From Perkinsus chesapeaki (lineage: Eukaryota > Perkinsozoa > Perkinsida > Perkinsidae), in the NCBI GenBank assembly GCA_013115145.1, contig JAAPAO010000302.1, positions 1-41,424 on the forward strand: 41,424 nucleotides of DNA, read 5' to 3'. Each line of letters starts with the position of its first letter. Within the stretch, counting starts at the first letter, position 1. The notes under the pieces were generated by a model. That model searched no databases, was not told the DNA's origin, and saw only the letters and a program-made list of their open reading frames with translations. The position numbers and the translations under genes were made by a program. Positions 116 through 29,541 of this stretch are shown piece after piece.

Positions 116-135
116 GTGCATGATGCACCGTGCAT
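116..135. repeat. Tri-arm palindromic 20-mer (perfect)
   Basis: GTGCAT (116-121), G, ATGCAC (123-128), C, GTGCAT (130-135). The arms alternate word, reverse complement, word, with single-base spacers. The outer bases G115 and C129 extend the first palindrome to 7+1+7. It shares its geometry, but not its sequence, with the blocks at 8.6, 17-18.5 and 29.3 kb. Confidence 0.9.
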
Positions 136-375
136 CCTTCAAGATTCTTCAAGAAATAGTACTGGCGGCACTGAATGGCCTGCGTCGTTTTGAGCCAGCC
201 GGGCCCTGGCTATCTTTGCACTCTCCTCTGGCGTTTCGCGGTTTGCTATTGGCTATGTGGCTCCTAGTCGCACGCATACGTTACGGTTTCCTGGATTTAA
301 AATTACACGACACGCAATTGTCCGACTTCAGGCACACTACGTGTAAAACGCACGAGATATGAAAAACTCGTGGTA

Positions 376-416
376 TGAAAACGCGAAGCGGTTTCAGTGC
401 GGATGACTTCGCGTTT
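376..416. repeat. Hairpin with 10-bp stem
   Basis: AAACGCGAAG (378-387) pairs with CTTCGCGTTT (406-415) across an 18-nt loop. Two further pairs are possible if one A is bulged. It lies about 400 bp upstream of the polycystin start. No function can be assigned. Confidence 0.55.
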
Positions 417-823
417 CACGCGTTTTTTAAATTAGCTCGCCGGTGAAGGTCCGTCGCAACTCGGCCTGCTGGGGACAGATTAGTCCTTGAGCTCGGCTTG
501 TTTTATTGAGGAGAGATAAGCCTAGCCTTTCGCGAAGATTAAAACAATTTTGTATCATTTATTGACTGAGAAACGTGGTTTGCATCACTGTAGTAGCCGC
601 CACTCTCGAGTTGGAGTGACTCAATCTGAAGGGATATTGGTAGTCATTCGCAACGAACTGAACCAACTGTAGAAATTTGTGACTGAGAGCTAATCGAAGT
701 TGTAGAGCCGATGTGCATGTGTACAGGGTGAAGTTAGTCTCTGGGTACGAATCGTACCAGACAAGAATCCTTGGCAGGAACTTCCTGTGAATCATTTAGC
801 GACGCTTGAATCCCAATCAATCC

Positions 824-3800
824 AATGACTAGCAAAAACTCGCTCACGGAATCCGAGCAACCGCTTGCCGACCTACATGAGGTGCGGTCGATCTACGTGC
901 GCGGCTCGCTGATCATCGACACGCCCAGTTCAGACGTCATTGACGTGTGTACACTAGGTTCTGGAGGACCCCGATGAATCAAAGAAGTTTCTGGGGGACC
1001 CCATCTGGTGGAAGTGCTTCGATCAAATAGACAAGAGGAGGATTTTCAAAACGAGCAGCGCGGAATACAAGAATTTGAGGATCATGTTTTTTGACGCGCT
1101 AGCCTACATAGCATTTGTAAGTGCGAGTAAAACCCCGCCAATCCATACGATACGTCAAAAGGTCTTAAACTGCAATTGCTTTCAGCTCATCATTCTAACG
1201 TTGCTGGCATATAACTCTCAAGGGGCTTTGGAATATGAAACTAGGGAACATCAAATGAGGTGAATAACTTCCGCTGATAACCGCAAAGGCTCTCACCGGC
1301 CAATAGCCGATGTTTGAATTCTGGACTTCGAGGTATTGGGCTGCCTGCAGCAACGGAGCTGCAAGTTGTGGTCTGCGCGGGGTTGACAGTGTGCGCACTT
1401 TCTGGTCATGGATTTTGGACGACTTGGTAAAATGCATAGAACCCTAACAGTTGAGTTTGAAATAGGTGAGCCTCTCACAAACACAGCCGCTTGAGCAAGA
1501 CGACCCTGGGTTTGGATTCAGTTTTCAGCCCGCTGACCTCATACGGAAAGAAAATGTAACGAGAAACTCTTACTCGGAACACAGCCTGTCATTTTGGTAG
1601 GTCAGAACCATGCAGACGAGCTTCGGCGGGAACGACTTCACAGTAACACATCATCCTGCTGTACTCAAGCATTCGTCTGCCTTCACCATCATACTAGGTG
1701 ATTTGATGCAGGAATTCATATGGCCTCGCAGAAGTGTGTCCATCGAGAATCGAAGAATGATCATAATGCGAAGATAGCAAGGAACTTTTGCTGGAAGATA
1801 TGTTCCTAGACTGATATAGAATGTCTAATACATTCCTTTTGGAAACATCTCATGATCCTCAATGGCTCCCTGTTCTGATGTCTTTTAAAGAGACGTTGAG
1901 TCTATCCTCAGGGCCTATACGAATAAGACAACTCCGCGTTGAGAAGAATAAAGGCTGTGAGGTGTCCCAGCTTTATAGGTAGTGACGGTAAACCAAGTAT
2001 TACCTCATATCTGAAGTCAGACAATTGGTATCCGATTGCTACAGTAAGTTCACTGAGGGAAGCAGTGAGAGCCGAGCGTCCTTCGGGTCCTCTCAAACAC
2101 CATCGTAGCAGTCTCAATTAGGCTGTATAAATCGCAGATGTACCTCAGTTACATCATGCCGGCTTTCGAGTGGGCCGATGCGTCACAAACGGGTGGTGCA
2201 GGCATTACGAGCGGGGGCATCCTTGCTATTGGGAAAGTCAGTGGTTCCAGGTGAGATAGACGGCAACGCACTAACTATACGGGAGACTAATGCCAGTTAC
2301 CCAGGCAGCGGGTTCTACTTCGATCTGCCGCACAATAGCAGTATAGCAAGAAATATGTTGACGGACTTTCAGGTGAGTATATCTCACTGCCGAACCCTAA
2401 TCGTGTCCAAGTCCTTCTTAGAATTCGCACTGGATAGACGCATCGACTCGAGCCGTGATAGTGGAGATACCGACGCTCAGCCCCAATACAAGGGTCATCG
2501 CAACTATCCGTATCCTCTTCGAATTTAACCCGACAGGTCTGCTCCCTGAAAATATTCTATGTGATTTTTAGTACTTCAGGAACTGTAACAGTTTCGGAAA
2601 GGATATCTTCCTTTCCGATCCATGCCATATCCATCTCAACTGCTCACAGCGAAGAAGTCGCTTCCCTGCTTTTGCAAGTAACGCTGCAACCACTCTCCTC
2701 TATAAAGGAGAACTTCATCAGCTCCTATGTCTGTTGGCGCTGATGGCTTCGTCAACATGGATAGTATGGCAGGTCAAACACATCGGACTAGCAAGAGTGA
2801 TTCTTCCGTCCCTTCTCCTCATTTAACTTTTTTTGCAGTATCTTGCTTATGGCTGGAATGTAGTGGATGTGGTTATAGCCATATTACTGGCCTCTTACCT
2901 CCTCCTCCGAATTCAGGTAGAGGAGAAGCACAACTGTGCTTTGGCATTCGGTCACTACAGGTATACGTCGCCGTTGCTGGCAGTAACGCCCTCAGTAGTG
3001 ATAAGATCGGCCACCCAGATTACTTCCCCCCTCTTGCAGCCAAGGCGGGTGTCCCCTTGGAGAAAGCTACTACTATTCTGAGGTGAAGTTCATGCTTAAT
3101 GTGCCTACTCCATAGCGTCTCTAAATACCAACTTGGTATTGGTATTACCAAGCGAGGAGATCTGTCGAGAGTGCGTGGCTCTGGCCCGGTATCCAAATCC
3201 AAATGAGCTCGAATCATCGCCTAGCCACGTTGGGATGGGTCGTACGTGTTCTTGCTTATGATTAACCCTTCCTCGATTTTTTACCCAAATTTATTTGGTC
3301 TAGGACTACTCTTTATCCACTTTTACTGCCAGCACGTAATAAAATCATGTCTCAGCTTGGTCAATGTCCACGTATGTATCTGGATGGCTTCTCTTAAGAT
3401 TCTCTGCTTAGATTCTGTCAGTTTCCCTGTCCTTCATGCTGCTCAGTTTGTCCCGCTCAGTTGCATATGTGTCCTGGCATGGATCAAGTTCTTCAAGTAT
3501 CTCACAATAGGTTTACCCTTTCGCATGCTCGTTCGAGTAAGCTGCCGTTAATATCGTTCCTCATTGACTATTCTCTGCAAGGTATTGGAGCACAGCGCTC
3601 GTCAACTCCTTGTCTTTGGATCATTACTGGTCATCGTTGTCTTCACTGGATTCTCATTAGCTTTCTATGTTGGTATCGGTAGCATCGCCTCTGACTACTC
3701 CAACTCGACTCATGCATTTGCAACAGCAGTTTTCTCATTAATGATGACTGTAAGAAGAACGTTATCGCTCTGGGATCATTCCCGTTTCAGCTCCGTATCG

Positions 3801-5538
3801 ATCCTCGATGGTACCTACCCGGCAACGATACCCTCGGTGCCTTCCTCACGCTATGCTATGTTTTCATTATATACTTCATAACCGTTCCCATGTTCACTGC
3901 TATCGTTTTGGCTGCATTCTACGCTGTAAGCGAGTCGGACGGCGCCAGTGGCGCCAGTAGCAAATATCTTAATCGACCCGCTTCTAGAGATGTTAGCACC
4001 CCGGGGTCGATCAAAGTACGATGTTAACCATGATACTTGTTTAAGGGACCATCTTCCTTCAGAGTGCTGCAAGTCGATGGAGGCGCACGTTCAGCGATTT
4101 GTGGTCGGTAGAAAAGAACGTCGAGAGACGGAACCCAATGGTTGTCTTCCTGTACGTCTGTGGTAAGCGGTAGACTCATCAGTCTGAACGACGCGAGGTA
4201 CACGTTCTATAATGCTCTAAAGGGAGTGTCTGTGGACATTGAGCACGATGACGATTTCGGTTTACCCGAGGAGCAGGACATTCCCTTAAAAATGCTACCT
4301 GGGTAGACGGCCGCCTGGGCACTCGAAGGCTAAATACGCCCCCTTGGGTGATATCGCTGGCTTTCTTAGGGTTGTTGCTCATCGATGGTTTGAGCGGAAG
4401 CGACGACTGGCGCTCATTGTGGATAGGAATTTACATAGAGACAGCCACAAAGTAGCCTTATCGTTCATAGCACATACAGTGAATCGACGTAGATGCAAAC
4501 ACAGTTGTTGGTCTCAGGGAGGGAGTGATGACTCTCGGGCAACTTCAGCTGGTACAGGATCACATGAAAAGCCAACAAAGGAGGTTACCATGGTCACCAA
4601 GGTACATTGTGCAAGCAAACGACTGCACTTGCCACGTCTGTATGGCGTGTATCCTCAGCTTCTAGAAAGGACCCGCGAGATGCTTGACATACCCTCTGCG
4701 AGTGAGTTTCAACCAGCCTTACCGAGCCAAGTAGCCGACAAGGCTGATACCGTGCCTTCCGGACCAGCGAGCCTGTAGGCAATTCACCGAGAGCTCCTTT
4801 GAGCTCAGCATTAATAAAACTGCTTTATACTCACTGGACATGGGATATAGTCATTCGCAATCGTCAGGTATACTGTAGATGAAGACGCAGTAGAGAGAAC
4901 TACGTTAACTAGGACACAGTTACAACGCCTAATGGACGAGGATCGAGCTCTCCCGTTGATGCTGGGGACGAAGCGTGCCATCGATGTGATCAGGAGGTGC
5001 CTCTTGATGCGGAGTGTTGGCGTCTTGACTGCTTTAACAGGTTTAAATTCCCTGATGAGCATCCCGAGGTATCACATCCGATCGAAAAGGGTGCTGGTCC
5101 CGTTGCGCAGCTGCAAGAGAATTGGTATCGTAAGCTCGACCGTCTCGAGAAGATGGGACTCGATATCGAGACAAAGCAGGTATAGCTTTGAAAGCTATCT
5201 CCGAGTGGAGCCAATCCTGCCGTTCAGAACCCCTTCTGTCGGCAGTTAATTACGGAGCTGGACAGATCGCTCGATCACATGCACAGTGTCTGGCGTAGCG
5301 ATTTGCGTACACTTCTAGAAGCAGTCGGAAACCTTGCTGAAGAGCTACTTGATTTGATCAAAAGCCTAGAAACGGCGAAGGTGAAATAGTCGTGCGGAAA
5401 TGCATGGGTTCGACCATTTGCTACCAGGCAAACTATGTGACAATGTTGGACAAGGATGCGGAGTATGCTTTACAGCAGCAACAGCAACGCCGGCAGAGCG
5501 CATATTCGGCTGATAGCAGTGATGGCCCCAGTCAGTGA
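824..5538 (+). CDS. Polycystin-2-like (TRPP/PKD2 family) cation channel, multi-exon
   Basis: This encodes a six-transmembrane channel of the PKD2 family, expected in ciliary or intracellular membranes. Exons read in order: cytosolic N-terminus with DPIWWKCFDQ (to 1116); S1 as LIILTLLAYN (1186-1259); TFWSWILDDL (1390-1426); PADLIRKENV (from 1529); extracellular polycystin domain GSGFYFDLPHNSS (to 2372) and WIDASTRAVIVEIPTL (2422-2525); S3 WNVVDVVIAILLASYLLL (from 2839); S4-linker LAWIKFFKYLTI (about 3475-3510); S5 LLVIVVFTGFSLAFYVG; S6 IIYFITVPMFTAIVLAAF. The C-terminus ends in a coiled coil (ITELDRSLDHMH, LLEAVGNLAEELLDLI) and a Gln tract. Introns of 69, 49, 41 (3750-3790), 47 and about 31 nt keep phase. 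The chosen stop, TGA at 5536, needs a 47-nt last intron; otherwise it stops at 5389. A possible intron near 884-960 makes the extreme N-terminus uncertain. The LGD-type filter is not obvious. Confidence 0.88.
3124..3151. repeat. Palindromic block in the polycystin gene (variant geometry)
   Basis: TACCAA (3126-3131), C, TTGGTA, then TTGGTA again, T, TACCAA (3146-3151): w-n-w'-w'-n-w. The left half extends to 8+1+8 (AATACCAA-C-TTGGTATT, 3124-3140). It sits between the S3 and S4 exons, probably in an intron. It is related in style to the 20-bp blocks but has one extra w' arm. Confidence 0.8.
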
Positions 5539-5761
5539 TTCTCATGATTATGATATGGCTCGTCTTTGAAGGACAGCTGGTGTTGCGTTGTCCATTGATT
5601 ACACCTGAAGACCAACGACACTTCTTCGTTGTCACTGCGCGGTGCGTATGCTTCATATTACTCTTTGAATACAAATCGTTAGACGAAGTGTGACACTCCT
5701 GTAATCGCTTAATCCTAAACCACGATTCATGTGCTCGAGAGGAAAGACAGGGAGTTGCAGA

Positions 5762-8060
<2,299 letters not shown>

Positions 8061-8439
8061 GGATTACCACTTTCTCAAAGCTAAAGTGACTTCTCGGCAG
8101 TTGGAACACCGAGTTCTTCGTTGGAGACTTTGCATGTATAATTGACGAAAGTGATACTATAAAGAGCATATCGCAATAGTGTTTGTAACGAAAAGCTTCC
8201 ATTTTCCAAAAAAGCCGGTAGGCTTGAGCTTACAGTGCGGGTGTTCCTTGCCGCCCGTACTGTCAACACCCTCTTTGCCACGGTATATTCTAGACTTGTT
8301 CTACGCGGTGGGCTGCAATACCGTCAGTAAGGCTGGGCTAAGAGAGTTTCTCCTCATGTAAGACCTAGAGTATTAGTTCTCTCGCTAATCAGATTCAGCT
8401 TAATTCTATATCCATGTGGCCTTGTTGGAGACCCGACAG
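8061..8439. other. Intergenic stretch, nothing recognised
   Basis: No family resemblance was seen in either strand. It separates the TTLL1 stop from the degenerate secreted-protein copy. Confidence 0.4.
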
Positions 8440-8690
8440 GGAACTTCCCAGAACAGCCAGAACGGCGAACCATATTCGCACAGTCCTCACCGGACAGCTT
8501 CCGATGTCGTCCAGTAGCTCGACATTCACACTTGTATTTGTTGGCTCTTCATTTCCGTGAGAAAAGCCGTACTGTGAGTATATCAATGAAGGTCCTGCCT
8601 GAGTCTATATGATAGCCCTTAACGCACATGGCATTGCCAATGCCGCGTTGAGTTACGATGATGTCAGCATGAGAGTGGCATAACGTAACG
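8440..8690 (-). pseudogene. Degenerate copy 1 of the small secreted-protein family
   Basis: The minus strand aligns by eye with copies 2 and 3. A start-like stretch reading TTACGTTATGCC..CTCATGCTG lies at the 8690 end. GGCTATCATATAGAC corresponds to the GYYID motif. A C-terminal block reads YKCECRATGRHRKLSGEDC, then ANMVRRSG, against YKCKYQAVGRQVKLSGKDC in copy 2. Frame is lost between these blocks, the signal-peptide region is shortened, and no single reading frame spans the gene, so I call it a pseudogene. A tri-arm palindrome (8631-8650) sits where the intact copies encode the end of the signal peptide. Confidence 0.7.
8631..8650. repeat. Tri-arm palindromic 20-mer (1 mismatch) inside the pseudogene
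   Basis: GCATTG (8631-8636), C, CAATGC (8638-8643), C, GCGTTG (8645-8650; one change). The first palindrome extends to 7+1+7 (8630-8644). Copies 2 and 3 of the gene have no such palindrome at the corresponding place; they keep only one CAATGC arm. The block therefore arose after duplication. Confidence 0.8.
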
Positions 8691-9073
8691 ATTTGAGCCC
8701 GATAATGAACTCAACTGGACTCAAGGAGGCTGGCATCTACAACATCTTTACACAAACCTGTGGATCTACTACTAGCTAACAAATTCTGTTGATATATGTG
8801 GAATAATGGATGCATGCAATTGGGAGAAACCTTCGTATTACAAAATCAACCGCTCACTTTGTGGCCTTCACGTGCTATGAGTACGATCGTGTCCTTCGGA
8901 AACTTTAACACCAGAAGCCCGAATTCATCGAAGCAAATTCAGGCCTCAGCAACTAGGTTAAACTCAAGCCGATTCTGTAAGTTCCTATGTGATATAAAGT
9001 GGATCTACTGCCGACTGATGCACCTGTTCATTTAGAAATATTGGATGCAAACTCGCCCTTGTTCATGAATGTA
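8691..9073. other. Spacer between copies 1 and 2, nothing recognised
   Basis: No gene could be supported. An open frame at 8796-9035 has no recognisable features. Confidence 0.4.
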
Positions 9074-9092
9074 CGAAACTTCGCAAGTTTCG
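9074..9092. other. Conserved 3' hairpin of copy 2
   Basis: CGAAACTT (9074-9081), loop CGC, AAGTTTCG (9085-9092). It lies exactly 28 nt beyond the stop codon of copy 2 (minus strand). The identical stem and loop lie 28 nt beyond the stop of copy 3 (16415-16435). Conservation of stem, loop and spacing while the flanks differ suggests a 3' UTR or 3'-end element. Confidence 0.7.
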
Positions 9093-9502: not shown

Positions 9503-10252
9503 AATGCTTCGTCAATGCCTAACCGAGGAGTGAATGCGCGACAAATAGGAAGCGAATGGTGAATGCTGAGAATACGACCATAACATTGGCTGCAGCTTCA
9601 GCCTAACTAACCCTGTTGGATACGATATTCGCTATGTTTTAGGGGAACTCGGGAATTCCAAGCCCGTAATCGTACTGTCGTTGTCGTCCTGCAGCGCTTC
9701 CGTAGCAAAAGCTTTGCCACACAGCTATTCCTGCCTGGTTCTACCGGTCAATGGATCCGAAAATTCCATGAAAGACCCACAGAACACTAACACAGACCTC
9801 TCTCTCGTTTTCAACTTAGTAGCATACCACCCCATGACGTCAACCGATTGTGGTGTTCTTGGTTCGCAATGTAAATGGCATTCGATTTGAGTTTCACATG
9901 ACATGGCATACTGTGCTACTCTCGGAAATATCGCTCCTTCTGCTTGATTGAGTTGTGTTACAAGGTATGTCAAGGCGCTGGATTGCGCCATGTTTTGGCT
10001 TACAGGTTTGCCACTCGCAACCTCACTCTAATCGACTGAATCTTGAAAACTAGTGCAAAGTCTAAATCTAGAATACACAATTCCTTCGCGGTACACTTCG
10101 AGCCGGGGTCTCCGGCCCGGATAACGAGTTCTTCGGGCCGGTCCCGACAGTCACTGCTGGCTCAGCACCGAAACGCATCTAAGCCGCGCAGGTGAGTTTT
10201 AGTATCCAGCTTAGACTTGCACCAATTTGATTTAGCTCTAGATTACTTCAAC
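9503..10252. other. Intergenic stretch left of the retrotransposon
   Basis: I see no supported gene. A GC-rich inverted repeat CCGGCCCG (10112-10119) / CGGGCCGG (10134-10141) with a 14-nt loop is present. The retrotransposon begins at 10253 with no target duplication visible. Confidence 0.4.
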
Positions 10253-12217: not shown

Positions 12218-14374
12218 CTACGCCAAAACTTCTCTCCATGGTAGAGAGGAAACCAAATCTAATGCATCCACTTCTTCCCACTCTGTGGGTACTGCACAAT
12301 CACCAATACGACTCAACTGGTCTGCAGCAAAATTCTGCTTGCTAGCGAGGGTATGGATGCTAAGACTATCAAATGCTCGGTCTTCTTGAGACAAAAGGGT
12401 TGCAATAGCTCTCAAGACAGTTGACATTCTCTTTTTAGACGAATAACACTTTCTCAGACAATGTGCCGCCGCGCTATTGTCTGTGAAAAGGTGGAGTGGT
12501 AAGTCCTTGGGGGCATATCGCGTGGATAAAACAACCCCCAAACCGCTTGCCAGCAATTCAAGGACGGTCATGTCCATAGATGATGGCATGTGGCCACGCA
12601 ATAATGCACGCCGGAGAGGGCCTGGAAGACGATCCAACGATAACCGAAAGAACCAAGTTTTCTGAGAATTATCTTGGCACACAGACAGAAAACCACCCAG
12701 ACCAAAGGTACACGCATCGCATGCTGTAAAAGCCTTTCTGGAGACCGAGTTGTCGGGCGCAAAAATAGGTCTTGTAGTGTTCTCCAAAGCGGCCAGCCAG
12801 ACCCTAATATCTTTGCGAAGCTCTTTACCAACAGTAGCCACGTGCACGGTGCGGTCCATGTAACCAATCAAAGCATGAAACCGCTGTAGATAAGGCTTAA
12901 CCAAGGTCAAAACTTGACTGAACCACGTTAACCGACCAACAATACGACGGACTTGAGAAAGGGTAACCTTAGGTTGATGTAGCAACCGTTCCAGATCTCC
13001 CACAGTAGAGGTAATCTTATCAGCTGGGATATTTATACTAATTGTAGGTTGGACGGATACATTAAAACCCAGGACCTTCCAAGTGAAGGAATTTAAAACA
13101 ACCTTCTGCCAAGATATCCATAAGCCTAGGGCTTGAGTTAGCAACAAGACTCTCGCAACCGTGATCCTTTGGGCAGATGAAGGTATAAACAGAGTGAGAT
13201 CATCTATATAAAGAAAACCCAACATGGAGGTGCTGCTGTTGTCAAACATTCTGAAGAGCAAACGTCCCAAAGCTGAAGCAACTCTCGTCCAAAGGACTCC
13301 CGAGCTTCGCAGACCAAATGGCAGATTTCGGTGTCTAACCACCATTTTCTCAGGCCTACCATCGCCAAGTGAAGCCGGGGAGGAGATACACAAAAAAGAT
13401 CTCTCCGATTTGGCGACAACACAATGTCGATAGGCTCGCTGGAAGTCCAACTGGAAACCAACATACCTGTCGGAGTTACACCGAGAGATGTACTTAAGAA
13501 CAGCCTTTAGATCCGACAGAGACGGCAATGCCAGTGTCTCAGGGCACGTAAACGGGGTAATCTTACGATTTACCCCCGAACGTCGATAGTCCTCTACCAA
13601 CCTCCATGATGGTGGTGAACATGGAAGAGTTGGCTTGGGGATAGCGGCCACACGCGAAATTACAACGCCATCAATCTCGTCAGGCGGAACTATCTCCATC
13701 CGATTTGCCTTAAGCTCCTCCTGAATGTAATCGTAGACCTCCTTAGGCAAGGACTCAGCGGACGCATAATTCACAAAGGCCGAACGGAAATCAACAGGCT
13801 CCTTAGCAAGTTTGCTCGGAGAAAGAGAGAACGTTGGTAGGTTTCCAGCGACCGGAATACAATTTAGAATTCCGGCAGGAAACGGTTCATCAAGCATCTT
13901 GTATATGGATGCATCACTAACTTGGTCTCCAAACAAATCAGCAAGGGCAGACCAGAGCGGCGCACGAAAGGGGGCTCCACTGTGAGCAGGGCGATTCTCG
14001 CAACCAAGCAAAGAACATAAAGAAGAACGTAAGTCAGAAGCCGCGCCCTCGAAAACATCGGCGAACATAGTTTGTTCGCCAGGAGATAAGTTACCGGAAC
14101 GACCACCACGATATATTACATCAACCAGACCCCATTCCGATACAACCTCGTCAACAGCCTTCAAAACCGTCTTCTGAGACAAGCTCAGGTCGGGATAGCG
14201 AGCGCCAGGAGGAGGAAAATCGAGCCCAAAGCCAGATTTAAATTTGGTCTCGACCTGAACCGTGGGAGATGGCAGTGAACCGACTAAGTGCAAATTCTGC
14301 CTCATTGAATTGATCTCAGTCGAGTCAACCAACGAAGGAGTAGGGTAAGGGAAGCAAGAGAAAGATGATGGCAT
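12218..14374 (-). CDS. Reverse transcriptase-RNase H polyprotein
   Basis: About 718 aa from ATG 14374. RT motifs are in order: VEDYRRSGVNRKI (fingers), motif A QLDFQRAYRHC, motif B LPFGLRSSGVLW, motif C FLYIDDLTLF (the YIDD near residue 390) and WISWQKVVLNS (motif D region). The RNase H domain follows: AFTACDACTFGLGG (first Asp), MTVLELLASGLGV (Glu), LHLFTDNSAAAHCL (second Asp) and NFAADQLSRI (last Asp), all catalytic positions present. No protease, integrase or methyltransferase is visible. The frame stays open a few codons upstream of the first ATG, so a slightly different start or recoding from the Gag ORF, about 300 nt upstream, is possible. No stops or frameshifts, supporting an intact element. 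Confidence 0.97.
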   Translation of the reverse strand: MPSSFSCFPYPTPSLVDSTEINSMRQNLHLVGSLPSPTVQVETKFKSGFGLDFPPPGARYPDLSLSQKTVLKAVDEVVSEWGLVDVIYRGGRSGNLSPGEQTMFADVFEGAASDLRSSLCSLLGCENRPAHSGAPFRAPLWSALADLFGDQVSDASIYKMLDEPFPAGILNCIPVAGNLPTFSLSPSKLAKEPVDFRSAFVNYASAESLPKEVYDYIQEELKANRMEIVPPDEIDGVVISRVAAIPKPTLPCSPPSWRLVEDYRRSGVNRKITPFTCPETLALPSLSDLKAVLKYISRCNSDRYVGFQLDFQRAYRHCVVAKSERSFLCISSPASLGDGRPEKMVVRHRNLPFGLRSSGVLWTRVASALGRLLFRMFDNSSTSMLGFLYIDDLTLFIPSSAQRITVARVLLLTQALGLWISWQKVVLNSFTWKVLGFNVSVQPTISINIPADKITSTVGDLERLLHQPKVTLSQVRRIVGRLTWFSQVLTLVKPYLQRFHALIGYMDRTVHVATVGKELRKDIRVWLAALENTTRPIFAPDNSVSRKAFTACDACTFGLGGFLSVCQDNSQKTWFFRLSLDRLPGPLRRALLRGHMPSSMDMTVLELLASGLGVVLSTRYAPKDLPLHLFTDNSAAAHCLRKCYSSKKRMSTVLRAIATLLSQEDRAFDSLSIHTLASKQNFAADQLSRIGDCAVPTEWEEVDALDLVSSLPWREVLA

Positions 14375-14680
14375 GAACAGAAAATATCTGAACAACAATG
14401 CGCACCGAAGGCACCCAAATACTCAACTCATTCGGGTTGAGGAGATGAAACGCAGTTTCAAACAAATGTGCAAGAAAAAACACGGCGACGAGCCAGGGAA
14501 ACCCGGTTCGGATAACACCAGTAGCTCTGCCGCAATACCGCAGCTAAGCCTCACCATTGGCGAGTTTAACAGGCATCCACGACTCTCGTCAAGGCCGAGA
14601 GAGGAAGACGAAAAGGAGATGGTCAGATTCTGAGCATCAAGAGAGTTCAGGCTAAGGTCTGAGCCAAATAGGCAAACAGA

Positions 14681-15745
14681 CTAGACACCCGAAGCCTTAG
14701 GTAATTTGCCCGGCGAACGGGAAACGGAATCATCATTCCTGTCTCTTTTTTCACCACGATTGGAATCTCTTCGACCCTTCTGCGAGTCCGTGGACTTCGA
14801 GCCGTCACCAGAGCGCCTCGACTTCTCTTGCTTGAGCTGAGGTTGGAAAGATGAAGCCGCTAAAGATGACAGAATAACTTCCGACAACAAGTCACCGCGA
14901 AAGTAAAAGTCACCCAACCCGGCAATTCCTAAGGAGGCCGAGGCTTCAATCTTACGCCGAATGGCTCTATCAGCCGCAGTAGCCGAAAACCAATTAAACT
15001 GAATAGCTAAACCAAGGATTCTAGCCTCATGTGCGTCTATCGCAGCTGGGGTCAAATCTCCCTTATTGATATTACCACCGTTAATATCATCCTGGACGAT
15101 AAGCATAGCCCAACCGAGCGTTTGAAAAGCCAAAGTCCAATGAGCACCAAACTGGCGCACAGGGTTTTTAGCCCCAGAAGGCTTCTCAGGAGACTTGATA
15201 ATCACTGGAGTGCCGTCCTCCTTCTCGGCGAGGATGGTACCGTCGCGCCTGCCGTCAGCAGACTCATCTATGAAATAACGGGACAAGTCTACATAAGTCC
15301 AAGGGGAACCTCTCAATGCTTCGACCATTTTTGTAGTAGGCATACACGCATCCGGGATAGGGCCCCACTTCTCGCTCACAGCTTTAACACTATCGGAGTA
15401 GTCTCTCGACCTCGACGAAGATCGCGCCGCAGTCACCTCACCACTACCAACAGCAGCCCGAGAAGCATACGCTAACTGGTCCTTCGCTTCTGCAGATATA
15501 CTGCACACATAAGTAGAAAGGACTCCCTCCTCCAGATTATCCAAAACGGGTGACTCACCAAGCTTGGCGAGCAAAGCCTTCTGGGCACCCTCAGAGAGGC
15601 AGCTAATAGACCTAAGGGAGCCAAGGCCGAAACCACACAAGCCTTCTACAAGAGCTTCTTGAACTGAAGGTTCAGCAACGACTTCTCGGACAACTTCTTC
15701 TAGGAGATCTCGGGAACCGCGAGGGTGAGCAGAGACCGTGGACAT
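14681..15745 (-). CDS. Gag-like protein of the retrotransposon
   Basis: About 354 aa from ATG 15745 (the frame is open slightly upstream without ATG). It is the first ORF after A1, in the Gag position. The N-terminal two thirds look globular and helical: LLEEVVREVVAEPSVQEALV, WTLAFQTLGWAMLIVQDD, AHEARILGLAIQFNWF. The last 60 residues are a highly charged, Lys/Arg/Ser/Asp-rich tail (RRSGDGSKSTDSQKGRRDSN) that could bind RNA. No CCHC zinc knuckle is present. The assignment rests on position and the basic tail; I do not recognise a specific Gag family. About 196 nt of leader separate it from A1. Confidence 0.65.
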   Translation of the reverse strand: MSTVSAHPRGSRDLLEEVVREVVAEPSVQEALVEGLCGFGLGSLRSISCLSEGAQKALLAKLGESPVLDNLEEGVLSTYVCSISAEAKDQLAYASRAAVGSGEVTAARSSSRSRDYSDSVKAVSEKWGPIPDACMPTTKMVEALRGSPWTYVDLSRYFIDESADGRRDGTILAEKEDGTPVIIKSPEKPSGAKNPVRQFGAHWTLAFQTLGWAMLIVQDDINGGNINKGDLTPAAIDAHEARILGLAIQFNWFSATAADRAIRRKIEASASLGIAGLGDFYFRGDLLSEVILSSLAASSFQPQLKQEKSRRSGDGSKSTDSQKGRRDSNRGEKRDRNDDSVSRSPGKLPKASGV

Positions 15746-17201: not shown

Positions 17202-17233
17202 TCAAGTAAATAGTAGAAATAGGGTCAGGATCA

Positions 17234-17253
17234 CAACCGTCGGTTGCCAACCG
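17234..17253. repeat. Tri-arm palindromic 20-mer (perfect)
   Basis: CAACCG, T, CGGTTG, C, CAACCG. The second palindrome extends to 7+1+7 (17240-17254). Confidence 0.92.
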
Positions 17254-17309
17254 AAGACCAATGTCACCCCTTTCTTCATCAAATCTGACATTCATATCAA
17301 CCGCGAGCA

Positions 17310-17330
17310 CTTGGGCTCCAAATTTTGGAG
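17310..17330. repeat. Tri-arm block, decayed (2 mismatches)
   Basis: CTTGGG (two changes), C, TCCAAA, T, TTTGGA. The right-hand palindrome CTCCAAA-T-TTTGGAG (17316-17330) is a perfect 7+1+7. Confidence 0.7.
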
Positions 17331-17522: not shown

Positions 17523-17544
17523 CTGACACAGTGTCAGTGACACT
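17523..17544. repeat. Tri-arm palindromic 20-mer (perfect)
   Basis: TGACAC (17524-17529), A, GTGTCA, G, TGACAC (17538-17543). Both palindromes extend to 7+1+7. Confidence 0.93.
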
Positions 17545-17630
17545 AGTATAGTATTGTCGAGTGCAGTTTTTGGCGTCACTGGGTTAGCTCGGTCTTCCGA
17601 ACTGTGGAACAGCGGAACCCGAAGGCAATT

Positions 17631-17653
17631 AATCGATTCGATTCAATCGAATC
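17631..17653. repeat. Tri-arm palindromic 20-mer (perfect)
   Basis: AATCGA (17631-17636), T, TCGATT, C, AATCGA (17645-17650). The second palindrome extends to 9+1+9 (17635-17653). Confidence 0.93.
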
Positions 17654-17764
17654 TCGGATCGATGCGGTGATTGAGAGTGTGTTCGAAGGATTCGTTCAAA
17701 GCGGCAGTGGTCCGATTCCATGGTTAGTCGTAGCTTCCCGGAAGTAGAGCTCGAAACACTCTCC

Positions 17765-17784
17765 TGGTGCTGCACAAGTGGTGC
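17765..17784. repeat. Tri-arm palindromic 20-mer (1 mismatch)
   Basis: TGGTGC, T, GCACAA (one change from GCACCA), G, TGGTGC. Confidence 0.85.
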
Positions 17785-17805
17785 ACCGCGAAGAAGTCCC
17801 CTCGT

Positions 17806-17826
17806 GTGTAGCCTACACAGTGTAGG
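17806..17826. repeat. Tri-arm palindromic 20-mer (perfect)
   Basis: GTGTAG (17806-17811), C, CTACAC, A, GTGTAG (17820-17825). The second palindrome extends to 7+1+7. It begins only 21 nt after the previous block ends. Confidence 0.93.
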
Positions 17827-18256: not shown

Positions 18257-18277
18257 ATGTGAGTCTCACATTGTGAG
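18257..18277. repeat. Tri-arm palindromic 20-mer (perfect)
   Basis: TGTGAG (18258-18263), T, CTCACA, T, TGTGAG (18272-18277). Part of it (GTCTCACATTGTG) recurs at 18366-18378, where the third arm is TGTGTG and the first is lost. Confidence 0.93.
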
Positions 18278-18471
18278 TGGTAGCAACAATCCGCCCAATT
18301 CTTTCCGCTCGCCCCAACGGTCATGGCGTTATAACGGTTCTTTTCACTCGTAATGATTAGAATATGTCTCACATTGTGTGTTGGTATTCGTCGAAATGGG
18401 AAAGTTATGACTGATTTGCACCACAGTTTGGGTCACACTGTACAGATGGCTCGGACCGAACTGTACATGGA

Positions 18472-18493
18472 TTCTGTGACAGACTTTCTGTCA
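18472..18493. repeat. Tri-arm palindromic 20-mer (1 mismatch)
   Basis: TTCTGT (18472-18477), G, ACAGAC (one change), T, TTCTGT (18486-18491). It also reads as a 7+3+7 hairpin TGACAGA-CTT-TCTGTCA (18477-18493). Confidence 0.85.
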
Positions 18494-20603: not shown

Positions 20604-20796
20604 CTGAGGCCACCCCAAGGAGCTGCGAAAATCGGTTTAACCCTTTTCCCATTTAAAACTAATGGGGCGAACACAAGAGCCCGAAGATCATTAGAATGAC
20701 AATTGATCAGCGGCAAAAGGAATGATCGGGCGGAATTTCCCCGAGCCCGGTGGAGTGTGAGGGACGAGAATCATTATCGCTACTGCGGCGAGGGCC

Positions 20797-22447: not shown

Positions 22448-22457
22448 TATAATGACA
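22442..22457. repeat. Perfect 16-bp palindrome over the nucleoredoxin start codon
   Basis: TGTCATTA followed directly by TAATGACA. The minus-strand ATG (22447-22445) lies inside it. One such 8+8 palindrome is expected by chance in a window of this size, so only its position is notable. Confidence 0.6.
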
Positions 22458-22813
22458 AAGTAGTTCAACTAACCGAACATACCCATCCCGAGAAAGAATA
22501 TTGATCAAATTAGTCCAAGTCCCGGTGGATGGAGACTGGGATGGTCACCGAGACGGGACCAAAGCAGCGGTTGTGGAAAGGCTTTGTTGGTGTGTTTGCC
22601 GCTTCCTGAGGAATATGTTATATTACAGTACGTTGCTGAGGAGCCAGCAAAGCGCTTACGGCTAACTGGGAATGACGCGCAAGTTGCTAATTAACAAGAA
22701 AACGCAGGTTGTGCGGTTCGAACCTGCGCATCCTTTCTCAAAGAGGCGGAGCAATCTTGCGCGTTGAACAAGCTAAGGAAGAGGAACCCTTCCGAAGATT
22801 CAGTGGCCCTTTA
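22458..22813. other. Divergent intergenic region between the nucleoredoxin and VPS10 genes
   Basis: It probably holds both promoters, but I recognise no core elements. A perfect 8-bp-stem hairpin CGCAGGTT / AACCTGCG (22703-22728, 10-nt loop) lies about 85 bp before the VPS10 ATG. Confidence 0.5.
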
Positions 22814-25800
22814 ATGATTCCGCGGGCCCTAATCGCAGTCTTCCAACTCCATGTAGTATATCTACATGCACAATCGACGGCTAATGGACCGAAAGTGACC
22901 GTACAAAGCATGGTCCGCACTGCCACAGGCTTCCTACCAGAACTTGCTCAACTCAGACCCCGGATAGCCCCGTGGCTGATATTGTGTATCTTGGCGAGAA
23001 GCACGAAGTCGTACTGCTCCGCACTGAAAATGGCCATGTCTATCGGTAAGAAGCATGAACGTGACACTGCGGTCAGAACTGGGTTTTAGATCACCCGATT
23101 CCGGCATGTCCTGGCAAAAAATAACAGACAATCTGGGGGGCAAGGTGACCATGTAAGATGCACCTTCGGGGCTGTCTGCTATCGACGTAGCTGGTCAGGC
23201 AAGCCAGCAAAGATAACGAAACTCCGCCGGACACCGACAGGATCAAACGCATAGAACCTCATCCCGAGAAGGCTGAAGTCGTTCTTCTAGTCGGCGTGAA
23301 GCACGTGGGAGCACTGTGAGGGGTTGAGCTGACCCCCGGGATAGATTCACTATCTGAGCGAGGATGCCGGAAAGTCTTGGCGGCTCATCAAACACAAGGG
23401 TCTACACACGTACCTCTTCCATCCTACTGACCCGAAGTCGGTCCGAACACGCTTACTCTGGGGACGACTGTGAAATATCAGGTCGGCGCTAGTATCTTCC
23501 TGGAGTCAGTCCTGCAATCTTAACTTGCACGACCGCGATCCCAACGATGCCTGCCAGCACGCTTTGTACCGGACAAGCGTGAGACTTCAGGCCGGGCCGA
23601 GAAATCAATGAACTGCCATTAGGATGGCGGCAAGACGCTATCTTTAGTAGCGTCCTATGTCGTACAGTTCAGTTGGGGATCGACCAAGTTCGGCTCTGCC
23701 AACAGAATATACTTCACCCACCACAAGTAAGCAACCGCGTTGAAATAGAATGGATAATAGTCTAACTAAGCCAATTTCGGCGTTGGACTATAAACTCGCA
23801 CACACGTCCTGAGAGGTCCTGTCGTCTGAGTCATACGTAGATCTCCCGTGATGTATTCGTACTACAAATTTCGCAGGAAAAGAATCAAAATTGCCCGGAA
23901 ATTCCCTACCTACCTACACATGACTGATCATTAGCGCATACCTCGGCTAGTTTGTCATAGTACAAGAAAGAGAACAGTGAATTACCAACACAACGGTTCC
24001 TGCTCCCACTTGTCTCTGAATGAGACACCTCTTTGCAAAATATTGGATCCTACGATCGTTAGGAAGAAGTCTGGAGACCAGCCCCATCTATATGGTTGGG
24101 ACACCGATATCAATTTTGCGTACACCGACGACAATGGTACGTATATTTCGGCGCTTCCATCGAGAGGTTACGGTTTCAGGCCAGTCTGTGACGACACTGG
24201 TCTCTGGCGGCAACAAGTTCGTTATGACCAAAGACTACCTATTTGTGGCCTGGGCCGTTTCAGGAGGCAAGCCCCCTCTGCCAGCCTTCTCGACTCTCAC
24301 CGAGGTTTTCTAGGCGAAGCTGTTCGACTCGCTGTGTCGTCCGATGGCGCCAAATCGTTCGCAACGGCACGGATTCCTGTCGCGCTAGAACAGCACAGCT
24401 ACACCATTTTAGACGCCTCGCACGGTACGTGGGCATAGGTTCACACGTAAGGTCCCATCGCAGGGTTCGTCATGTTGCATGTTCATCATGGTTGGAAGAA
24501 CGGACGGGAAGTCGGGAACATTTACGCCAGCGACGCGACAGGAGCGCTCTTCTCACTCAGCCTTGCTAACGTGGTGAGAATCTTACTTCCCCGGTATGCG
24601 AGCTCCAAGTCCATTACGTACTTGGCTGGAGCTGAGACGACCTGCAATATCATGAGTTCCGTGGATTGTTCCCGGTTCTCAGGCGAGCAATCAAGATGGC
24701 GAAGTTGCCATCGAGCGCGTTGTGTCTATGGATGGTGTCTACATCGCGAACTACGTGGACGACCCATTGGTGGAGTTCTCTGAGGAAGAGGGAGAGCTCA
24801 ATGATGAAGAGGCCGCAGTAAAGGCCAGGCCTCCGTTGGCTATCATCGAAGACATTTCTTTAGGAAGGAATCCAATTCGAGCGCCATCATGGTGCAGTGA
24901 AACCATCCAAAGACGAGGACTACATTCGTAACTACCCGATGAGTTAGCGAGTTCAATCCGCGGTCAGGGACCGTTATTAGCTTTGATAACGGTGGCATGT
25001 GGTCCTACATAGAGGCTCCGCAGGAAGATCACGAGGGTCGGCACATAGAGTGTCCGAAATCAAGGTTGGGCAGACCTAGCTTCTAGACATGCAAAGTCGC
25101 TCGCACAGATGCTCGCTGCACCTCCACGTTATCTCTAACGAGGTAGCGTCGTCTCCGCTATATGCGACAGAGTCGGCGGTGGGACTCATCGTAGCACTAG
25201 GTCCGTGGAATCGACAAAACGATCGCGGAGGTGCTTTCGATCAGGGAATCTAGGACCGTATTTACGTCATGAACAAGATGAGATGGACACCTTCCTCTCT
25301 CGAGATGGCGGCCTAACATGGGAGCTAGTACACCCAGGTTGAAGAGCGTTTTCCCATACGTGGTTTTAATCGTTACCGACAAGGTTCCTATGCTTATGAG
25401 CTTGGAGATCATGGTGGACTCATTTTGGTGGCGGATGCCTCTCAGAGGACCAGCACGGTCGCTTTCTCCTGGAGCGAAGGCGCCGACTGGTAGCTAACAC
25501 GCCTACCGGCTTAACTGGACCCGCGCTCAGGTTCAACCTCGAGACTGGGGCGGAGCCGTTCCATGTTGACAACATTCTGACATCTGATACAGCGGCGTCT
25601 GTGAAGTTCCTAGTGTATGGCACGCGTGACTATGAGAGTAGGCCGACAGGAATTGCGGTAGCGGACACGCTTGGGCATTTCGGTTCGCTCAGGCGTAGTT
25701 CACTTTCTGGATTTCTCATCGGTTTTACCGCGAACTTGCAGTGGCTACTGGGCGCCAGATGCTCAGTCTAGTGACTACGAAACATGGACGCCAAGCGCAG

Positions 25801-27248
25801 GAAAGTAAGGGCTGTCGATCGTGGTCGAGCCAAAATAGCCCATCTGTGGGCCTGTTCTCGGCAGCTCCTTCTTGAGCAGGATTTCTGGTGATTCCTGTCT
25901 TCTGGGTCGTATTACGAATTACGTTAGGCGGAAATCCCAGGCGAAGTGCTTCAATGGTGAGTTATCGACTGCACAATTTGTAGCAGAATAGAGTTATTCA
26001 GGGGAGAAGTTCGAGCGTCCTATATTTAAAAATAACTGTCCGTGCACCTTTGAAGACTACCATTGTGCTCTGGGGTTCGCAAGGATACTAGGAGAGTCAG
26101 AGTGCAAACCTGTAGATGCTGATGCGGTATGCCCTGATCAAAGAGAATCAGATAAGCATTGCGAAATCATGCGGCTGTTGCTTCCCACAGGTGTTGACTC
26201 CAGAAGAAATGAAGTGCACCTCCTCCGGTGTCTACTTTGCCGATGCATATCGCAAAGTTCCCGGTGACACGTGCGAAGGAGGCTTCGTCCCCCCTCAAGC
26301 GCAGGTCCCGTGCCCAAGCTTCAGCCCGTTATCCAAAGGTAGGCAAGTCTCTCATCGTTCTCTAGGGTTGCCAAAGTGTGTCACCCGAGAAGCGAAATTG
26401 TTCATGGTGTGGAGAATCCTATTGTAGACAATGCACTAGTGGATGAAGGAGTCTCGGATGTAGTTTGAGATATAGACAATCGGAAAACTTCATTCACATC
26501 TGAGAGCACCTGCAACGACTTGTTGCCCAGGGGAACACGAGCTTGTTATTAACGAATACATTTTAAAGTGAAGTATGGCGTCTCGGCCTCAGGAGCACTG
26601 CTCGTGGTTGGGCTGATCGTTCTGGTCGTCGTGGTGCTCGGTGCGATGACCCTAGCATCTGGTGGAGAGGGCAACGGTGGATTTGAGACATTGAGGTTGG
26701 CTGAAATAATCCTCACTGCCAAGATGTAGTATTCCTTTCAGATATGTGAAGTATGCGACCTTGGGAAGGGCTGGTAAGGAGGCCCAAGGCTATATGAGCG
26801 ACAATGAGGCGGAGTGAGAAATGCCTTCGCGGTTTTCGATACACGACCGGGAATAGCTCTCATTCGCTTCAAGCTCAGCCGCTCGGCAGCCTTTAGTTCC
26901 CTTCAGACTTGCTGATGCGCCGCCGCTGGATGAATACTGTGCGAATGTTGGACGCTCGAAGAAGGGGGATGGCCAAGTCGTAAGAATCCTTTTCCTCTTC
27001 CAGCACCACATCATGAACTTATCGCCATCCTGTTATTCATTGGCGAGATGCCCCGCTACAGGTCCATCATAATATCGGCAGTGACTCTGAGGAATCTCTC
27101 GATTTTGATTTTGATAACGACGTTGAAGTGATGGGACGGGCTCAAGACCACCAGGTATGATTTTGTTCGATTGTGCTGGCTCCATCGCTCACCGAACTTC
27201 AAGACTCTTCTCTACGTATTCAATCATCGGGTGACCCCAAGTCTGTAA
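22814..27248 (+). CDS. VPS10/sortilin-like sorting receptor, multi-exon
   Basis: Type I membrane receptor of the sortilin/Vps10p family, which moves cargo between Golgi and endosomes. ATG 22814 begins a signal peptide (MIPRALIAVFQLHVVYLHAQ). VPS10 be a beta-propeller with BNR-like SxDxGxxW repeats: HEVVLLRTENGHVYR then SPDSGMSWQKITDNLGG (near 23040-23145), SYTILDASHG then FVMLHVHHGW, GNIYASDATGALFSLSL (24466-24570), SFDNGGMWSYIEAP (about 24980-25020), FLSRDGGLTWELVHPG (near 25290-25335) and HGGLILVADASQRTSTVAF. A Cys-rich 10CC-type region follows (CPCTFEDYHCALGFAR about 26038-26085, further Cys to about 26300). The membrane helix ALLVVGLIVLVVVVLGAM lies at about 26600-26655. The cytosolic tail ends with an acidic cluster (SDSEESLDFDFDNDVEV) typical of sorting signals. 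Stop at 27248 requires a last intron of about 50 nt; the exact 3' end is uncertain. Confidence 0.85.
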
Positions 27249-27946
27249 GCCGGTTGTGTGATGGGTTAGTGGTCGTGTATCTACCCTATTTAGTGATCGC
27301 CATGGAAATCAATGAGTTCATAGGCTCTGGAGCCATACCTACACATGACTCTTCCTGCTTAGCAATGCCGTCCGTTGAATCCACTTTGCCTTTTCAGGTT
27401 CGTATGCGCGCTGGTGGCCTCATTTCTGCACCCACGACTGTTCCGAAGCTTCAACCTCCGAAATCGGGGGTACCATTCAACAATGAAGACTTTCCCGTTG
27501 GCCCTAACTGAGAAGATCCGACGCCGTTTCACCGCATGAATAGATTAGGCAAACAACTAATCCGCCGTGAACCACACACGTTTGCGTTGAACAGTCTCTT
27601 TCTGAGCGTCAAATGCCTGCGGTGCCCAGGTGGGTCGTTGCACGGCATACGCGGGGGCCACTGGTTATTTGTAAAGGTGAGGTGTCAAATCCGAGTTGTT
27701 AGAATCTTGTGTTTTCTATTGTACCACCGACTTGAGCAGTGACTTCTCAAGCGGATGATATTTACAGAAAAACAAGTTCTTACGACACTAACGGAACGAA
27801 ACACCACAGCAATGAAAAGCCAATGAAATATGCCATCTGATGGCCAAGTACTCGCGGTGTGCGAGGAAGCTAGAGTTACGAACTCTGTTTATGCAAAGAG
27901 GCAGGGCATAGAGACATCACCACGGCAGTTTATTTCACTTTCATCA
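27249..27946. other. Intergenic region, nothing recognised
   Basis: It separates the convergent VPS10 and esterase genes. The open frame to 27511 continues the region after the proposed VPS10 stop and could be an alternative tail exon, but it has no recognisable motif. Confidence 0.4.
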
Positions 27947-28891
27947 TCACCGTGTCAGCGGATGACCATGAAAGAAATCAAAAACGGCTTTGCTAGTGCA
28001 CAACTTGCTAGGATCCTCTGTTTCACAGTCTAACCCCGGCCACCTATGTCTACGCCCTTCAACCTCAACCAGATACACAGAGTTCGAGTGAGGGCATCTT
28101 GGATACTTCTCGATAGTAGCGGCGCCGATGGTAGCCACCTTCTCACGCTCGTCGCTCTCGCAACCGAGGCGCTCTGCCCACTTAGAAATGTCTTCTTCAA
28201 CGGATGGGAATCTTAAGTACGATATGATCGCATTCGGGCTGCCATCGTATGGCACAACCCAGTCACCAAGCTGGTGCACTTTCATGAGGGAAAGACCATC
28301 TCTCTTTCCTCGATCAAACTTATTGTCACATGCTTGGAATGCCCCGTCAAGACCGGGGGGTAGAGTTAGAGTTCCCTCTATTGACGCCGCTTTACTAATA
28401 ATATTATAACACATAAGGGCCTCGGCCAGCATACCACCAGTACTAAAGCCGACAGCATACATGGGCAAGTTACTGACGCCGAAGTGTGACCTGAACAAGT
28501 CACGGATCTCCCGAATAAAACCAATATCATCAATGGTTGTGTTAGAGTTGCAGCAAGTACCGGCGTTATAGCCCCACCCAGGGATATTGGGTGATAGGAA
28601 CACATTGCTCGAAAGAGGGCAAGGTGTGACGAGCATTACATTGCTCTCTCGGGCTTGTTTCCTCACACCATAGGATTCCATCTTGTCTACGTGCCAAGTG
28701 CGGCATTCATCAAAGGGTTCCCAACCAGGCATAGTAAAGACAATGAATGACGGTTTTGTTGCTGGGGAGTAAGTCCAAAAAACTCTTCTCTCACCTTGGT
28801 GATCGAGAGTAACTACTTCATCTGTGTAAGAGTTGGACGAAGCCACAACATACAGTAGTGGAAGTAGAAGCGAGTAGTGAATTTGGGTCAT
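27947..28891 (-). CDS. Secreted LpqC/PHB-depolymerase-type serine esterase
   Basis: 314 aa, single exon, ATG 28891. It has an N-terminal signal peptide (YSLLLPLLYVVASSNS). The alpha/beta-hydrolase core matches the feruloyl esterase/PHB depolymerase (LpqC, CE1-like) family: oxyanion region FTMPGWEPF, PGWGYNAGTCC (the family WxxGxCC-like block), DDIGFIREI, nucleophile elbow GFSTGG with Ser150, catalytic Asp210 in GDWVVPYDG, and His282 in RRHRWPG. The family cleaves ester bonds in plant or microbial polymers outside the cell; a digestive or host/diet-degrading role is inferred. Length is normal for the family. The single long exon contrasts with its heavily split neighbours, which may hint at later acquisition, possibly from bacteria. 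Confidence 0.86.
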   Translation of the reverse strand: MTQIHYSLLLPLLYVVASSNSYTDEVVTLDHQGERRVFWTYSPATKPSFIVFTMPGWEPFDECRTWHVDKMESYGVRKQARESNVMLVTPCPLSSNVFLSPNIPGWGYNAGTCCNSNTTIDDIGFIREIRDLFRSHFGVSNLPMYAVGFSTGGMLAEALMCYNIISKAASIEGTLTLPPGLDGAFQACDNKFDRGKRDGLSLMKVHQLGDWVVPYDGSPNAIISYLRFPSVEEDISKWAERLGCESDEREKVATIGAATIEKYPRCPHSNSVYLVEVEGRRHRWPGLDCETEDPSKLCTSKAVFDFFHGHPLTR

Positions 28892-29242
28892 GAACGAGTC
28901 TGGGATTTAAGAATTGGGGAAAACTACATGCACATGGTTCACCGAACCAGAACATCTGAACTAAGTGAACTCATGCTAAGAGATTATCGCGGTTGTAGAT
29001 CGATTTCAAAGGAGGAATATCCCGAGGCTAGTAGAAACAACCACTGAGGAGCTGCTGCTCGGAATGAATTGGGAGACAGGGAGAGGAGAATCCATTCAAA
29101 CAACTGAAGTGCACTATTAGGTCTCAGCTACTTTTCCTACCAGGACTAGCTCCAGCACGCGAGGGAGGGAGGAGCACGCAGTACGATGTAGGGTCTGATC
29201 ATAAGAGCATCTGCGGCACTTCATGTACACAAGTCAGCGATT

Positions 29243-29258
29243 ATGATATGGATATCAT
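29243..29258. repeat. 7+2+7 palindrome
   Basis: ATGATAT, GG, ATATCAT. Confidence 0.6.
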
Positions 29259-29313
29259 CATTGCAGCGCACGACTGGAGCGCCACCTTTCATGGAGTCGA
29301 TAACTATGCGAGG

Positions 29314-29370
29314 TAAGGACTCCTTACTAAGGAGACAGTCTCCTGGAGGCTGGCGAGTCGCCAGTGGCGA
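29314..29370. repeat. Tandem array of three tri-arm palindromic 20-mers
   Basis: Block 1 (29314-29333): TAAGGA, C, TCCTTA, C, TAAGGA, perfect. Block 2 (29331-29350): GGAGAC, A, GTCTCC, T, GGAGGC, one mismatch, sharing GGA with block 1. Block 3 (29351-29370): TGGCGA, G, TCGCCA, G, TGGCGA, perfect and directly abutting block 2. The three words differ, yet arm length and single-base spacers are identical. Confidence 0.93.
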
Positions 29371-29521
29371 CCAAGCGGCATCGCAAGAAGTCAACGGCTA
29401 CACGAGTACACCGTGAAGGATGGAACGAACAGACCAATGTGGGGGCGTTTGGTATGGTGCCCGCAGCCTTGGCCGCCGACAGGCCCAGTCGGGAGTGTAT
29501 GGTATAGGAGGAATCGGAAGG

Positions 29522-29541
29522 TCGTGAAACACGAGTCGTGG
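29522..29541. repeat. Tri-arm block, decayed (2 mismatches)
   Basis: TCGTGA, A, ACACGA, G, TCGTGG. The inner palindrome CACGA-G-TCGTG is perfect. It lies 150 bp after the array. Confidence 0.6.

Follow-up and report, generated by a model that had tools for sequence, protein, structure and literature searches.

Dispersed 22-bp palindromic blocks in the Perkinsus chesapeaki genome as probable excision scars of hAT-superfamily transposons

The genome of Perkinsus chesapeaki, a marine parasite, carries dispersed short blocks of one exact form, each of which very probably marks a site that a hAT-superfamily transposon left empty and that was then repaired. The repeating unit is T1-7 + rc(T) + T2-8, where T is an 8-base word, and measures 22 bp in total. 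The blocks had been noticed in a sequence-only reading, which suggested hairpin opening at breaks or a transposase footprint adding palindromic bases between target duplications. This suggestion is supported by the form of the blocks, by empty sites and by a target preference. Considering the form, the repeat copies that are 14 bp shorter, the preference for nTnnnnAn and the hAT pieces with dense blocks together, the guess of a transposase footprint appears to have been right.

The window analyzed here is a whole stretch of 41,424 nt, contig C227 of an assembly of 35.4 Mb in 884 contigs. We scanned the window exhaustively for the 6-1-6-1-6 form (a 6-base word, its reverse complement and the word again, separated by single bases), allowing at most two mismatches, and obtained 20 sites, of which 8 are perfect, 5 have one mismatch and 7, including 29522, have two. 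The eight blocks reported as perfect are exactly the eight perfect sites in the window. All four sites named as having one mismatch were recovered as such, but their number was too low, since 34276 makes five. For the two sites named as having two mismatches, 29522 was confirmed whereas 17310 has 4 mismatches in the 6-1-6-1-6 form. Scored on the 22-bp form the two change places: 17310 is a two-mismatch member, starting at 17309, and 29522 is weak, with 4 mismatches. The spacers had been described as single free bases, which does not hold. In most cases the second spacer is paired with the base that precedes the block, and the first spacer with the base that follows it, and the unit is therefore 7+8+7 on an 8-base word.

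On the 22-bp form, five probable excision scars in the window have no mismatch. These lie at 115..136 (T = GGTGCATC), 17523..17544 (T = CTGACACT), 17805..17826 (T = TGTGTAGG), 29313..29334 (T = GTAAGGAG) and 29350..29371 (T = CTGGCGAC). One mismatch is present in the scars at 17233..17254 (T = GCAACCGA), 17630..17651 (T = GAATCGAA), 18257..18278 (T = ATGTGAGA) and 29330..29351 (T = AGGAGACT), and two mismatches in those at 8630..8651 (T = GGCATTGG), 17309..17330 (T = ATTTGGAG), 17764..17785 (T = CTTGTGCA), 18471..18492 (T = AGTCTGTC) and 34275..34296 (T = CTTGCAAC). A possible scar at 10102..10123 (T = GCCGGAGA) also has two mismatches; like the scar at 34275, it was absent from the earlier list. 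The scars that begin at 29313, 29330 and 29350 form a stack of three, in which the second overlaps both of its neighbours. When the three 14-bp inserts were removed from 29313-29371 by script, a site of 17 bp remained in which the T words GTAAGGAG, AGGAGACT and CTGGCGAC overlap. No block was left in this site, the best match having 8 mismatches. By this reading, one short site of 17 bp was visited three times.

To compare forms, we scanned the window with word lengths of 4-12 and offsets of 0-3 against five first-order Markov controls. The (8,1) form, i.e., word length 8 and offset 1, gave 5 perfect, 4 one-mismatch and 6 two-mismatch sites, whereas the controls averaged 0, 0 and 0, which bears out the earlier claim that the blocks are far more numerous than chance allows. 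We then scanned 26 combinations of word length (k) and offset (a) over 290,234 bases, comprising the window and fetched loci from 36 sources, with overlapping duplicates and small comparison stretches left out. Here the (8,1) form produced 26, 19 and 30 raw matches at 0, 1 and 2 mismatches, compared to 0, 0.5 and 1.0 in controls. Merging of overlapping matches left 70 sites, namely 26 perfect, 18 with one mismatch and 26 with two. The form thus recurs in the same genome far above controls, as the sequence-only reading had proposed to check, and is therefore not peculiar to the window; the blocks are confirmed as real and non-random.

In the window as well as in the 290,234 bases, k = 8 alone stands out among word lengths, as the 8-bp duplicated target word of hAT elements predicts. 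Among offsets, a = 1 alone stands out, fitting a palindrome centred on the complement of the element-adjacent base. The sole other form flagged among the 26 was (10,3), which has the same centres as (8,1) and a wider loop. RAG/Transib-type elements make a 5-bp duplication, and RAG-type hairpins have no one-base offset. The corresponding form, k = 5 and a = 0, gave 2 perfect and 11 one-mismatch sites compared to control values of 0.25 and 8.75, and none of the a = 0 forms among the 26 showed a clear excess in the 290,234 bases.

To examine the length of the inverted part, a first scan covered 280,686 bases; T was set to 8 and the inner bases contributed by the two hairpins (p and q) were varied from 0 to 16 each, leaving out sums below 3. 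The number of perfect sites peaked at p+q = 8 (24 vs 0); a weaker excess was seen at p+q = 3, and a trace of one at 5. A sharper test used all exact 6-base direct repeats at distances of 6-22 and compared the fit of their inner bases to the hairpin rule with 100 permutations. At inner length 8, the rule was obeyed by 26 of 228 repeats (permutation mean 0.08, maximum 1), and at this length only did the fits exceed the permutation control. The excess at p+q = 3 was rejected as a footprint: it is an excess of 9-base direct repeats, of which 9 of 306 fit the hairpin rule compared to 15.5 in permutations. Inner lengths 4 and 5 gave 4 and 3 fits with 1.8 and 0.7 expected (permutation maxima 6 and 3), inner lengths 6-7 and 9-16 at most one fit each, and lengths 0-2 are indistinguishable from chance in scans of this kind. 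It is possible that a minority of short footprints occurs among the scars. Outside full scars, palindromes with a one-base loop and arms of at least 9 were in mild excess (8 vs 1.8 in controls). With the same arms, loops of 3 and 5 gave 4 and 3 palindromes outside blocks and even loops 0 or 1. The one-base-loop palindromes would fit long one-ended tails that reached past T and were joined otherwise, their numbers being too small to serve as support.

The T words match the Hermes/Ac-type preference nTnnnnAn. In the 44 scars with at most one mismatch, T at position 2 or A at position 7 was found on 46 of 88 sides, against a background of 25.3% (binomial 5.9e-8), and in all 70 scars with at most two mismatches on 69 of 140 sides (binomial 9.7e-10). 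Position 3 of the T word is rich in T (34/88), and T is depleted at position 4 (11/88). The published descriptions of Hermes give nTnnnnAn as its target preference (PMC10368747, PMC2803484) and 8-bp target duplications (PMC10368747). The definition of a scar leaves the letters of T unconstrained.

DNA searches of the genome with scar-bearing stretches returned scar-spanning copies for three scars only, two of which gave empty sites. At the scar L032:119 (T = CCAGTTGT), three of the four other repeat copies spanning the site lack exactly 14 bp. The copies on C158 and C830 have a single intact T, and the copy on C311 has one change in T; the fourth, on C52, is 77% alike and too diverged at this site to be read. 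At the scar L031:4520 (T = GATGAAAG), all four fetched copies are without the 14 bp; the one on C390 keeps all 8 letters of T, and those on C320, C881 and C251 are changed in T. Overall, seven of eight copies from two dispersed repeat families are exactly 14 bp shorter, compared as copies of a repeat and not as alleles. The form predicts this gain of 14 bp, which is the difference between the 22-bp block and the 8 bp of a single T. Together with the fixed form and the preference in T, the gain agrees with the earlier argument that the blocks reflect a process and are neither a copied element nor a protein site. The third scar, L040:4260, is common to two repeat copies that are 97% identical, the second being on C153, which shows that scars are inherited and copied like any other sequence. 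The spread of mismatches among the 70 scars (26/18/26) fits activity over a long time.

Nineteen 10-kb stretches, 15 from C664 and 4 from C14, C578 and C632, contained 8 perfect and 7 one-mismatch sites. By extrapolation from this sample, which is not random because its contigs had earlier turned up in the search, the genome would hold about 1,500 perfect scars. Scars are distributed very unevenly. On C664, the 15 stretches held 4 sites with at most two mismatches, and 24 of the 70 scars lie in four hAT loci, L037-L040, which cover 25.8 kb and were chosen for their hAT matches. The genome has four loci with Dimer_Tnp_hAT matches above the Pfam cut-off, all of them in pieces. Three open frames tested at the hAT loci all contain PF05699, which in one of them is found beside PF14291. 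Over 73% of its length, a hAT fragment on C379 is identical to P. chesapeaki FOL47_007452. For the reverse-transcriptase frame at 12218-14398, the closest named relatives come from Perkinsus olseni and P. chesapeaki.

We searched about 280 kb for complete elements, defined by an 8-bp duplication and 14-base inverted ends with at least 11 matches. At a duplication length (K) of 8, this gave 3 weak candidates, and at K = 5, 6, 7, 9 and 10 there were 30, 9, 0, 0 and 0. Around the four hAT loci, L039:2146-5774 alone fits at K = 8, and weakly. Thus, neither the about 280 kb nor the surroundings of the four hAT loci yielded a convincing intact element with inverted ends and an 8-bp duplication. The four hAT loci may not be the source, and the active source may be rare, may lie outside the scanned stretches or the assembly, or may be extinct. 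Some scars in the hAT loci lie between open frames, and introns or introners were considered as their source. This was rejected, as the 22-bp block consists of T and its complement alone. With respect to open frames, 0 of 70 scars lie fully within frames of at least 200 aa, which make up 34.8% of bases, and 2 of 70 within frames of at least 150 aa (41.3%). This avoidance carries no weight as evidence because a 14-bp insert would itself break the frame.

The form is what the chemistry of hAT excision predicts. Insertion of a hAT element would duplicate 8 bp and give T-element-T. On excision, the transposase would nick each flank one base away from the element, and the 3' end released there would attack the opposite strand. 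The left-flank hairpin would then read T1..T7 / T8' / T7'..T1' with a one-base loop, and the right-flank hairpin would be its mirror image around T1', also with a one-base loop. Host enzymes would open the hairpins some bases from the tip, leaving 3' tails of reverse-complemented flank. As the same T is present in both flanks, these tails would be complementary over T and could anneal there, followed by trimming of flaps and filling of gaps. The product would be T1-7 + rc(T) + T2-8, 14 bp longer than a single T, and would not depend on where the hairpins are nicked, as long as the tails together cover T. Annealing through T regardless of the nick position would explain why there is one dominant product. 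The hairpins, their opening sites and the annealing join are drawn from published hAT biochemistry and from the fit of the form. According to this literature, cleavage by hAT transposases begins with the non-transferred strand, and the 3' end released in this way attacks the opposite strand (PMC6900584), leaving hairpins on the flanks (PMC6900584, PMC4763223). Mre11 and Artemis/Pso2-type domains have one genome match each, and Ku has one weak match, with stops. Loss of end joining as the cause is not supported by these single matches, and it would not explain a uniform product.

Snap-back or template-switch repair, e.g., by polymerase theta, leaves inverted copies beside breaks and could act at ordinary breaks without any transposon. 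The mild excess of one-base-loop palindromes outside the blocks is in its favour. However, such repair predicts neither a fixed word length nor a one-base offset, whereas only (8,1) and inner length 8 stand out; it predicts no nTnnnnAn, and at every site the two ends of the insert would need to fall at the same 8 bases. We therefore regard it as very unlikely, and the repeated templated synthesis that the sequence-only reading had offered as a further option, taken without a transposon, is superfluous and fails on the same three features of word length, offset and target. The 8-bp duplication itself is common to P, Merlin and KDZ elements, and literature on Merlin and on another DNA transposon superfamily mentions Perkinsus. 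Scars of such a superfamily are nevertheless very unlikely, since flank hairpins offset by one base are the pattern published for hAT elements and the T preference matches that of Hermes.

Ciliates are alveolates, as is Perkinsus, and many scars were found with no intact element in the fetched DNA. This might suggest programmed DNA elimination by a domesticated hAT enzyme, with the scars as somatic junctions remade in every life cycle. Junctions remade each generation would carry no mutations, and elimination is therefore disfavoured: 0, 1 and 2 mismatches are similarly frequent (26/18/26 of 70), indicating that scars age in an inherited genome, and one scar is common to two repeat copies. We consider this explanation extremely unlikely. 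The assembly is fragmented into 884 contigs, and an artefact of assembly or sequencing might be suspected. The scars, however, occur across many contigs with differing T, are mutated and follow a target motif, and an artefact would need to know T, which leaves it a negligible probability. Two points count against the reading as hAT scars: the search for an intact element gave weak candidates only, and known footprints are varied, so that a plain copy of these would predict more types than we see.

Known hAT footprints, described for Ac/Ds in plants and yeasts and for TcBuster, share with the Perkinsus scars P-nucleotide insertions centred on the complement of the element-adjacent base, remnants of the target duplication on both sides and microhomology at the join (PMC5873905, PMC3499496, PMC1978519). 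Footprints of Ds include palindromes with this centre whose arms reach up to 20 nt in S. cerevisiae, where microhomology is reported in 88-89% of footprints; in Candida the palindromes are short, which was interpreted as nicks near the hairpin tip, and 128 footprints fell into 28 types (PMC5873905). One Arabidopsis set had a single type in 11 of 17 footprints, and the published sets are described as mixed and mostly short. By comparison, the Perkinsus scars contain the whole inverted T, have one dominant product and, by extrapolation, number over a thousand per genome. On the scale of palindrome length, Perkinsus would stand at or beyond the S. cerevisiae end. The statement that no named element has this form was correct in that the form is not an element, but a scar class of this kind is known, namely hAT excision footprints with P nucleotides (PMC5873905).

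Other systems resemble the scars in part. V(D)J coding joints made by RAG and related enzymes (Transib, ProtoRAG) also arise from flank hairpins that are opened and joined (PMC6900584), yet lack an 8-bp target duplication. Kat1 of Kluyveromyces lactis, a domesticated hAT enzyme, leaves a hairpin-capped flank and makes most of its cuts 1 nt away from the inverted repeat (PMC4763223), but is described as acting at the MATa locus in mating-type switching, whereas the Perkinsus scars are dispersed. The introner elements of the dinoflagellate Amoebophrya, likewise an alveolate, have inverted and direct repeats at their insertion sites (PMC7789003). They are described as resident intron elements with direct repeats of 3-5 nt, whereas the Perkinsus blocks hold no element; no resident intron-like element was found between the repeats of the 22-bp block, which is T and its complement. 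Among the matches listed, no title or abstract opening pointed to a genome-wide report of such scars. The explanation as hAT-type excision scars of one dominant full-length form is well supported. The class as such, hAT hairpin footprints, is known; what is new is how uniform and how dense the scars are, and that T is inverted in full.

A further proposal, to which we give slightly less than an even chance, is that hAT hairpins in Perkinsus are regularly opened far from the tip, for which an Mre11-type nick may be responsible, and are rejoined via the 8-nt duplication. Nearly every excision would then leave one self-identifying 22-bp scar, and the genome could be read as a log of visits, including repeated ones to a single 17-bp site, by transposons that are themselves almost wholly gone. 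If true, the load of excisions could be counted in an assembly without knowing the element. Excisions of transposons are usually difficult to detect unless the element is known or a reporter is used. Because all scars have the same exact form, the sequence by itself suffices to trace past jumps: a scar bearing its target word three times in fixed order can be found by computation, dated from its mismatches and mapped with respect to genes. The scars are thus a record of hAT activity and break repair in Perkinsozoa and a source of 14-bp insertions, and they provide a natural test case for the resolution of hairpin-capped breaks, which is also at issue in V(D)J joining.

At L032, one of the loci fetched from the P. 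chesapeaki genome, a 14-bp unit, CTCCAAGTTGGAGC, is arrayed head to tail between positions 332 and 388. This array looks like a scar, i.e., a 22-bp block read as a hAT excision footprint, that was enlarged via tandem slippage. Outside full scars, L032:4687 and 11 other sites hold palindromes whose arms, at least 8 bases long, flank a one-base loop; the longest arms reach 22 bases. The scars at L016:1920 and L032:917 have the same 8-base target word, ACTCCGTT, and otherwise dissimilar flanks, which may reflect chance or a preferred target.

A repeat of approximately 324 bp, starting with CAGTAGTAC, is present at L040:4148-4471, in a locus picked for its hAT transposase match, and on contig C153 at 15387-15709. 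The two copies are 97% alike, differ in placement and contain an internal inverted repeat, and might represent a piece of a mobile element. At L031:4441-4462, a scar with one mismatch lies within a tRNA-like stretch (GGTTCGAA...), to the left of the dispersed repeat that bears the scar at L031:4520; this stretch is possibly a SINE portion or a tRNA relic.

In the window itself, an open frame of 726 aa (12218-14398, reverse strand) carries the reverse transcriptase domain PF00078. It matches 30 places in the genome, 24 of which are free of internal stops, with identities of 26-49% except for the self-match. Ordinary genes for tRNA-Arg (CCG; 37413-37484, reverse strand) and tRNA-Val (TAC; 40134-40208, forward strand) are also present. 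Between them, at 38186-38296, lies a tandem repeat of a 35-bp unit, for which we found 59 genome matches. Several of these fall among the first bases of contigs (C554, C660, C62, C507, C336, and C42), and the repeat is possibly a satellite of contig or chromosome ends.
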